Source: Natronobiforma cellulositropha
GTDB lineage: Archaea; Halobacteriota; Halobacteria; Halobacteriales; Natrialbaceae
Length of the DNA: 64,000 nt
Assembly (NCBI RefSeq): GCF_025629245.1
Contig: NZ_JANZXN010000015.1
Span: forward strand, 1 to 64,000
Direction: 5' to 3'
The translations under genes and the position numbers were made by a program. Each line of letters opens with the position of its first letter. The stretch's first letter is position 1. This document shows positions 1 through 18,036 of this stretch, one piece after another. The notes beneath the pieces were generated by a model, which saw only the letters and a list, made by a program, of their open reading frames with translations, searched no databases and had not been told where the DNA came from.

Positions 1-114
1 CAACCAAACCTCGGGGCGGTTCGCACCGAGGGAACAGGTAGGTTGCAAACCGTAATATCCCAACGTTCGGGAATCCTCGCCCTTTAGGGCGGGGAGGATG
101 TCAAACGCTGAACA
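1..114 (+). mobile_element. Right end of an IS200/IS605-type (TnpB) element, body outside window
   Basis: A stem-loop (CGCCC, loop TTTA, GGGCG) at about 87-102 is followed by GGGGAGGATGTCA. The same 13 bases end the complete TnpB element near 49553 and a third copy at 17747-17759 on the other strand. In this IS family the right end also forms the 3' part of the omega RNA that guides TnpB. No tnpB coding is visible in the first 80 bases, so the gene, if still there, lies to the left of the window. The assignment rests on the shared terminus; the exact end is uncertain by a base or two. Confidence 0.65.
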
Positions 115-16029: not shown

Positions 16030-16380
16030 TGGCTGCTTAACCCTCTCGGGTTGGAAGCCACGCCTCGGGTGCTGGTATCACCCGGGGCACGTTCTTCGAG
16101 CGTGCCCCAACCGGTGTGCGGCGGGCGCAGCTTCCACGGGTGAGTTTCACGAAGAGATACATATAATTTCTGGAAATGGGTGCTGGCAATGTGGCCGAAC
16201 GCGAGTTCGACACGGAACCCGATCGAAAAACCGCCGGGTGCGGAGTTCGAACCGGCTGAACCACGGGTCGACGGTCGACTGGCCACCCCAGTACTCCGCT
16301 ACGCGGCGGCCGATATCCCGAGGCAGTTCACACGAATGCAAGGAGGAAGCCCACGAGTTCACTCGTGGGAGGAATCCGAC
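16030..16380 (+). mobile_element. Non-autonomous IS200/IS605-like element (MITE)
   Basis: The stretch holds no gene but is rich in stem-loops: AACCC-TCTC-GGGTT (16039-16052), CGGGTG-7 bases-CACCCG (16066-16084), GGGGCACG-9 bases-CGTGCCCC (16084-16108), and at the right end CCCACGAG-TTCA-CTCGTGGG (16350-16369). The right-end hairpin has the same TTCA loop and GGAAxCCC...GGGAGGA frame as the complete TnpB element's right end (49521-49548), with a different but paired stem. This fits a PATE/MITE moved by a Y1 transposase supplied elsewhere. Boundaries are approximate; no direct repeats are expected in this family. Confidence 0.55.
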
Positions 16381-17159
16381 TGTTGTTCCCAGCCTGGTCT
16401 GGGGGACCCTGGAAGCTCGTCCGTCGAGTCGAGTAACTCCTCCTCAGTTGTCCAGGGATAACACCGGCCGTGGAGTTCGAAGAGGCGAAAGTCGTTCAAG
16501 TGAACCCAGCTGTACGACGGAACGTCGATTTGTTGGTCCGCTAGTTCGCTAATCACAGCGTCGACAGTGATATCGATACCAGCGTGTTCTGCACGGTCGA
16601 CGAGCGCCTCGAGCGCGACAGTTTTCGTCTCCTCGTCGATGTCTGTGGCAGCGATGATCTGTGCTCCTGCAGCGAGCACGTCACGCTCAGTAGTGAGATT
16701 CCCCTCTCTCTCCCAGTGGTAGGCACGAGGGAAGGCGTACGCTTTCTCGAAGTACTCAGTTTCACCGAGTTTGCCGAGTTCGTTGACCTCGCCGCCTGCA
16801 TCCTGTTCGAAGATGGCGGCGACGTAATCACAGAGGGTTGCCATGATGTGGAATTTTACGCGGAATTCGGGGAGGCGCGAAATGTTGATGTCGGCGAGAT
16901 CGCCGATGAGAAACGCGTACGTTCCATAGCGGCGGTTTAATCGATCGCTGACCGCCCGTACGCGTCGGAGATACGGATCACGATAGCTTCCGAGGACGAG
17001 ATAGGCAGTCTGGTCGCGGTCGTAGATTGCTGGCGTCTCACTGTTTGCCCACGACAGAATCTGGGTCGCTTCGGTGGATCCGACATCGAGACCGCGTAAC
17101 GCCCGCTGCACGGTAGCCATGATCTCGCCTGCGTTTGGCGGAACGGATGGGCCACTCAT
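16359..17159 (-). CDS. Nucleoside-deoxyribosyltransferase-like protein, C terminus overwritten by IS end
   Basis: The protein has 266 residues and no name I recognise. LVLGSYRD (54-61), FLIGDLAD (83-90), LCDYVAAIFEQDAGGEVNELG (110-129, with D111 and E127) follow the order of the nucleoside deoxyribosyltransferase-like fold, as in the 11870 gene. The last codons (S-H-E-stop) read through the right-end hairpin of the element at 16030-16380, so the original C terminus has been replaced. An ATG 39 bases upstream is an alternative start. It diverges from a regulator at 17275, and the 115 bases between them hold three evenly spaced palindromes. Base composition is less GC-rich than neighbours, a hint of transfer. 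Confidence 0.6.
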   Translation of the reverse strand: MSGPSVPPNAGEIMATVQRALRGLDVGSTEATQILSWANSETPAIYDRDQTAYLVLGSYRDPYLRRVRAVSDRLNRRYGTYAFLIGDLADINISRLPEFRVKFHIMATLCDYVAAIFEQDAGGEVNELGKLGETEYFEKAYAFPRAYHWEREGNLTTERDVLAAGAQIIAATDIDEETKTVALEALVDRAEHAGIDITVDAVISELADQQIDVPSYSWVHLNDFRLFELHGRCYPWTTEEELLDSTDELPGSPRPGWEQQSDSSHE

Positions 17160-17173
17160 ACCGTCGTACACAA

Positions 17174-17236
17174 TTGACCTGGTGATAGGTACTTCCAATT
17201 GACTCAGTCAAATAGCGATTTTATTGACCTAGTTAA
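17174..17236. promoter_or_regulatory. Three 13-base palindromic operators at 25-base spacing
   Basis: TTGACCTGGTGAT (17174), TTGACTCAGTCAA (17199) and TTGACCTAGTTAA (17224) start exactly 25 bases apart. The middle copy is a perfect inverted repeat around one base; the others are imperfect. They occupy the divergent promoter region between 16359-17159 and 17275-17739, and are probably bound by the winged-helix protein encoded at 17275. Confidence 0.65.
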
Positions 17237-17274
17237 CCCAAACCATTATGCAGCTGAGAAGGCTGTGTTGAACT

Positions 17275-17746: not shown

Positions 17747-17776
17747 TGACATCCTCCCCGCGCTGACGCGCGAGAT
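17747..17776 (-). mobile_element. Right end of an IS200/IS605-type element, minus orientation
   Basis: Read on the minus strand, a CGCGC-GTCA-GCGCG stem-loop is followed by GGGGAGGATGTCA (TGACATCCTCCCC on plus, 17747-17759). The same terminus is found at the window's left end and in the complete element near 49553. No tnpB coding follows to the right, so only the end seems to remain. Confidence 0.6.
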
Positions 17777-17793: not shown

Positions 17794-18036
17794 ATGGGTC
17801 TCGAACCACCGGCGGCCTACCGGCTGCTCGGACCCGGACAGTACGACTTCACGATCACGTACCTCCACGTCGAGCTGTACCCGGAGTACTTCGATACGAA
17901 CGCCGACATCCCCGGCTACGAGTACGACTTCGTGCCGGGCACCGACGCCCTCGCGAACGCACCCGACTCACTCGAGCGAACCGAGACGACGGCGTCGGTC
18001 TACGGCCGCGTCCGTGACGCCCGCTGTCGGCGCTGA
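17794..18036 (+). pseudogene. Possible gene remnant beside the IS end
   Basis: An 80-residue open frame (from MGLEPPAAYRLL, ending in RCRR) lies between the IS end and cofD. It has reasonable codon use and a segment TITYLHVELYPEYFDTNAD that looks like real protein, but no family is recognised and the start abuts the IS end. It may be the 3' part of a gene whose front was removed. Confidence 0.3.

Follow-up and report, generated by a model that had tools for sequence, protein, structure and literature searches.

Predicted operators at 25-bp spacing between a winged-helix regulator gene and a divergent gene with an NDT/TIR-like fold in Natronobiforma cellulositropha

Organization of the Locus

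The window analyzed in this study is a stretch of 64,000 nucleotides from Natronobiforma cellulositropha (contig NZ_JANZXN010000015.1, positions 1 to 64,000). It contains a winged-helix regulator gene and a divergently oriented gene, here called the partner, which is currently annotated as hypothetical. Three 13-bp sites are placed between both genes (Table 1), with centers at 17180, 17205, and 17230 and thus in steps of exactly 25 bp. The 13-mers share 8, 10, and 10 of 13 positions in pairwise comparisons. An earlier note on this DNA had described three sites at this spacing, one being a perfect palindrome and two being degenerate; coordinates and spacing were borne out and the dyads indeed differ in this way (6/6 versus twice 4/6).

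Table 1. Features of the divergent locus. Positions refer to the window; clade names (A to E) are similarity-based labels coined in this analysis.
Feature	Position	Strand	Characteristics
Divergent partner, 266 aa, DNPH1/NDT/TIR-like fold	16359-17159	-	Model m4b65fb974ae2, pLDDT 84.8
Operator site 1, TTGACCTGGTGAT	17174-17186	+	Predicted; weak; dyad 4/6; clade A relatives have an equivalent at 25 bp from site 2
BRE/TATA-like element of divergent gene, GGAAGTACCTATCA	17183-17196	-	Putative; weak consensus match; clade A1 block 17187-17198, 1.72 bits
Operator site 2, TTGACTCAGTCAA	17199-17211	+	Predicted; perfect palindrome, dyad 6/6; kept in relatives
Operator site 3, TTGACCTAGTTAA	17224-17236	+	Predicted; dyad 4/6; kept in relatives
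BRE/TATA-like element of regulator promoter, CCCAAACCATTATG	17237-17250	+	Putative; hardly varies in clade A1, mean of 1.90 bits
Winged-helix (ArsR/MarR-type) regulator, 154 aa	17275-17739	+	Model mf3983dc274a4, pLDDT 89.4

In a combined score for equal period and dyad symmetry, the array reaches 42, while dinucleotide shuffles average 26.9 and peak at 33 (0 out of 400 reach 42) and the best other 135-nt stretch of the window scores 40. Lone 13-mers with two mismatches occur frequently across the window (8 versus 3.8 expected), and it is therefore the array, rather than each site, that exceeds chance. This abundance could speak for chance repeats, but the array scores above all shuffles and the paired sites are widely conserved (see below). 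A stem acting at the RNA level conflicts with the location of the strong sites upstream of both putative transcript starts. We regard chance repeats or an RNA-level stem as extremely improbable.

The Regulator and Its Divergent Partner

The AlphaFold2 model of the regulator has a winged-helix fold with a recognition helix (approximately residues 56-68) and C-terminal helices. Its closest solved relative is 3u1d from Halomicrobium mukohataei (Z-score of 17.8, 24% identity over 139 residues), which is also found in a profile search with an E-value of 1.6e-14, followed by members of the ArsR/MarR proteins (Z-scores of about 9-10.5). 3u1d is the best structural match by far, the ArsR/MarR proteins come next, and no Lrp/AsnC protein is present among the structural matches listed, nor is there an Lrp/AsnC match in Pfam. 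The regulator has no Pfam match and its homologues stay under the cut-offs for HTH_5, HTH_20, and MarR_2; it is classed here as ArsR/MarR-type by its predicted fold and not as a Pfam member. Neither of both window proteins is matched in NCBIfam, leaving the regulator without a curated family match, and PADLOC gives a single weak match for it (PDC-M05A, 18.4 bits). The entry title of 3u1d gives the fold alone, and this protein is not known to regulate a divergent NDT/TIR-like gene.

The model of the partner has a Rossmann-like fold that aligns to solved members of the NDT/DNPH1/TIR proteins, with DNPH1 as best match (Z-score of 10.7, 125 residues, 2.6 Å), followed by TIR-STING (10.0) and 2-deoxyribosyltransferase (9.7). 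Foldseek alone returned nothing for this model at E ≤ 0.001. The partner shares its predicted fold with DNPH1, nucleoside 2-deoxyribosyltransferase, and TIR proteins and has a motif E118-x3-GG-x3-E127 (E118, G122, G123, and E127) that is invariant across 61 partner homologues. It differs from these proteins by a low identity in the structural alignments and by its lack of sequence matches in Pfam, NCBIfam, PHROGs, PADLOC, or PDB sequences. From the fold, it is a reasonable inference that the partner is a nucleotide or nucleoside N-glycosidase.

Promoter Geometry

The haloarchaeal promoter consensus consists of TTWT and CGAAA, and leaderless mRNAs make up 72% in Haloferax volcanii (PMC4983044). 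We infer the TATA/BRE elements and the leaderless starts at this locus from that consensus. CCCAAACCATTATG starts right after site 3, and its TTAT occupies positions -29 to -26 from the regulator ATG, from which the regulator mRNA is likely leaderless. On the opposite strand, GGAAGTACCTATCA spans -37 to -24 from the partner ATG and adjoins site 2. Relative to the partner, site 1 (-27 to -15) lies over the putative TATA-like element and site 2 (-52 to -40) adjoins the putative BRE-like element, while site 3 occupies -51 to -39 relative to the regulator gene, immediately 5' of its putative BRE-like element. The layout in the window has its symmetry center at 17217.

Conservation of the Gene Pair and the Paired Sites

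Relatives of the regulator were found in 283 and relatives of the partner in 240 of the 391 haloarchaeal genomes sampled. The divergent partner is present for 124 out of 150 regulator homologues listed. The gap between both start codons has a mode of 115 nt, with one clade having 121 nt and another 100 nt.

The repeats, whose absence from homologous loci would have counted against operators, are present there at 24-25 bp. A motif-based lag test was performed on 51 non-redundant distant loci of clades B to E, allowing at most one mismatch per site, and palindrome pairs 24-25 bp apart were found in 25 of them versus approximately 0.24 expected. These CCAN3TGG pairs are spaced at 24 bp in 14 loci and at 25 bp in 11 loci (0.12 expected for each, with a maximum of two in shuffles). 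In clade A, the core ACTnAGT repeats at 25 bp in five out of seven loci versus 0.04 expected. Column conservation gives blocks that coincide with the sites and with the two TATA/BRE-like elements. An autocorrelation using palindromes only was noisy, in contrast to the decisive motif-based test.

The pair at 17199 and 17224 is the deeply kept unit, which corrects the three-site reading of the earlier note. The site at 17174 is backed in the clade of the window, and some other clades support it as a half site or weak site only. With a symmetric matrix, the percentile of site 1 is high in clades A2, B, and E and poor in clades C and D, an ambiguous result; for clade A1, the automatic anchor of this test picked the pair of sites 1 and 2 in some loci. 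The loci of clade E have diverged, and clear pairs are limited to some of them. Loci without a partner do not have the site pair, and in several of them the homology starts at the TATA-like element; one such locus (L243) retains site 3 alone.

Clade D is organized differently. Both sites fall within the partner promoter, one near -10 and the other across the BRE, and off the regulator promoter, with the spacing still being 25 bp. In clade D loci L165-L185, a further conserved AACTTAGggAAGT-like dyad was seen between site 3 and the regulator TATA.

A spacing of 24-25 bp represents about 2.3-2.4 helical turns, placing neighboring sites approximately 103 degrees (24 bp) or 137 degrees (25 bp) off phase; the earlier remark on the window, that the period does not fit an integral number of turns, is true family-wide. 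The spacing may have no role of its own if each site is set against its own BRE and the distance between both promoters dictates the rest. Such an origin suits most clades and agrees with the symmetry of the window layout around 17217 and with a nearly constant site-BRE distance from clade A to clade C, but 24-25 bp is kept at gaps of 100, 115, and 121 nt, the clade D sites leave the regulator-promoter position, and the third site of clade A is again 25 bp off. We therefore consider it rather unlikely. The main argument comes from clade D, which keeps 25 bp off the regulator promoter and points to a spacing set by the protein-DNA complex.

Operator Words and Recognition Helices

Clade A, to which the window belongs, has the operator word TTGACTnAGTCAA, while the other clades have AACCAN3TGGTT. 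In the tree, clade A is found on a single branch (support 100/100, length 0.51), on which the switch of the operator word falls. Clades B and D each contain one long-branched misfit and clade E is split in two nearby groups. The recognition helix reads KNE(A/G)AILDQL in clade A, KSQAAIKDQL in clade B, and KSKAAI (e.g., KSKAAIGDQL) or KSKKTV in clades C and D. The differences in helix and word agree, with few independent changes, and this pattern fits a putative co-evolution of regulator and operator. In clade C loci, including L033:829-1944 (-), the regulator has a C-terminal extension of about 200 residues for which no Pfam match reaches the cut-off.

A different regulator might bind the sites, with the winged-helix gene as a mere target, and candidates such as a DUF7344 or a Bat/HTH_10 protein are indeed encoded nearby, at 3-4 kb. 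The sites travel with the gene pair across genera and families, however, and their word changes with the winged-helix clade, which makes binding by another protein improbable.

Beyond the locus, a whole-genome search for a regulon using the exact motif with one mismatch gave no enrichment over the reversed control: TTGACYNRGTCAA with at most one mismatch occurs at 11 places versus 16 for the reversed pattern. This locus is the only place in the genome where two listed sites occur together.

A Model for the Array

We propose, with a probability of roughly three in four, that the winged-helix protein from 17275 uses the three sites as autoregulatory operators and through them governs its own expression as well as that of the divergent NDT/TIR-fold gene. 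This is in line with the earlier view of operators in a divergent promoter forming a self-contained cassette of a regulator and an enzyme-like gene, a reading that the analysis supports; the graded binding and the wrapping also raised in the note would be possible additions. Each of the 13-bp dyads would be bound by one dimer, most strongly the perfect one at 17199, and neighboring dimers, 24-25 bp apart, would assist one another around the DNA. Occupancy of the sites at 17199 and 17174 would enclose the TATA/BRE of the partner and silence this gene until a signal frees the regulator. Occupancy of the site at 17224, beside the BRE of the regulator gene, would set the regulator level, either by activation or by repression. 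Cooperativity between off-phase dimers, as proposed here, is unusual.

The direction of control is less certain than the operators themselves, with repression of the partner as the probable outcome. The clade D layout, with both sites on the partner promoter, is by its site positions a repressor layout, and because these sites cover that promoter, partner repression would be the shared function. Alternatively, the layout could be that of an activator: dimers at 17199 and 17224 would each contact TFB/TBP at the neighboring BRE and turn on the two genes together, in the manner of GvpE at its two UAS elements, with site 1 being accessory or serving as a shut-off at high levels. In clades A, B, and C, both strong sites directly precede the putative BREs, and such a BRE-adjacent placement is known for GvpE (PMC4390858) and for Ptr2, LysM, and Ss-LrpB (PMC2995911). 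Activation is nevertheless difficult to reconcile with clade D, whose sites span the start, TATA, and BRE of the partner but lie far from the regulator TATA, and with site 1 over the partner TATA region in the window; we see it as possible but doubtful. Either set of alternatives, on the direction of control or on what causes the spacing, is compatible with autoregulatory operators.

Two characterized archaeal systems have a comparable organization. Ss-LrpB of Sulfolobus solfataricus has three sites in its own control region, including a BRE-adjacent site, with reported cooperative binding of dimers and a concentration-dependent switch (PMC2995911). The present locus likewise has an archaeal regulator with three predicted sites in its own control region, one of them BRE-adjacent, but Ss-LrpB belongs to the Lrp family, whereas here we find an ArsR/MarR-like model, a divergent region, and a dedicated partner. 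The in-phase spacing of Lrp sites, with two or three helical turns (PMC2995911), is also not found here. The leucine-zipper-like GvpE acts on 20-nt UAS elements that overlap centrally between the divergent gvpA and gvpD promoters (PMC4390858). Both cases concern divergent haloarchaeal promoters, each with a regulator element abutting the BRE, but the overlapping UAS contrast with the separate 13-bp dyads and the winged-helix regulator of this locus. By analogy, the locus may work like either system, although we file it in neither protein family. This kind of layout is thus known, while the regulator family is uncharacterized and the conserved off-phase spacing is the unusual feature.

The predicted operators offer a direct experimental handle on a widespread gene pair whose two window proteins lack Pfam or NCBIfam matches. 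The operator words of the clades form a natural series to be compared with the recognition helices, and the array offers a way to test for cooperation between dimers on archaeal promoters when their spacing departs from the helical repeat. A more speculative picture, to which we assign a low probability, is that of an undescribed haloarchaeal module, widespread and common on plasmids, in which dimers about 100-140 degrees off phase on a 24-25 bp array would silence a TIR/NDT-like nucleotide-cleaving effector until stress or infection, as part of a regulated toxin or defense unit with an unusual operator bound cooperatively off phase.

Distribution and Surroundings of the Pair

Matching records of haloarchaeal plasmids were found for both the regulator (113) and the partner (89), and further copies are chromosomal. 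Close members of clade A are spread over several families, suggesting horizontal movement. No relative of the pair was found in phage records and viral contigs, and a viral cassette was rejected on this evidence. Rfam and PHROGs searches gave no match, and a literature search by locus tag for the copy of Halobacterium NRC-1 found nothing on that copy.

In one genome (G355), the pair occurs twice on a single contig in almost identical form, at C2:11162-12517 and C2:580362-581628 (L069 and L085). In the window, hairpins or IS200/IS605-like ends coincide with or closely follow the stop codon of each of the two genes (16340-16375 and 17749-17775). Compared with close homologues, the partner frame is longer by six residues, which reach into the left hairpin. 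The right-hand end-like sequence (17749-17775) is repeated at many places in the genome, and the ACATCCTCCCC end-like sequence occurs again, with three mismatches, at 78-101 (-). Past the regulator, an 80-aa open reading frame (17794-18036, +), possibly a gene remnant, overlaps DNA with a 91% identical 54-nt copy on a different contig, at C3:1291-1344.
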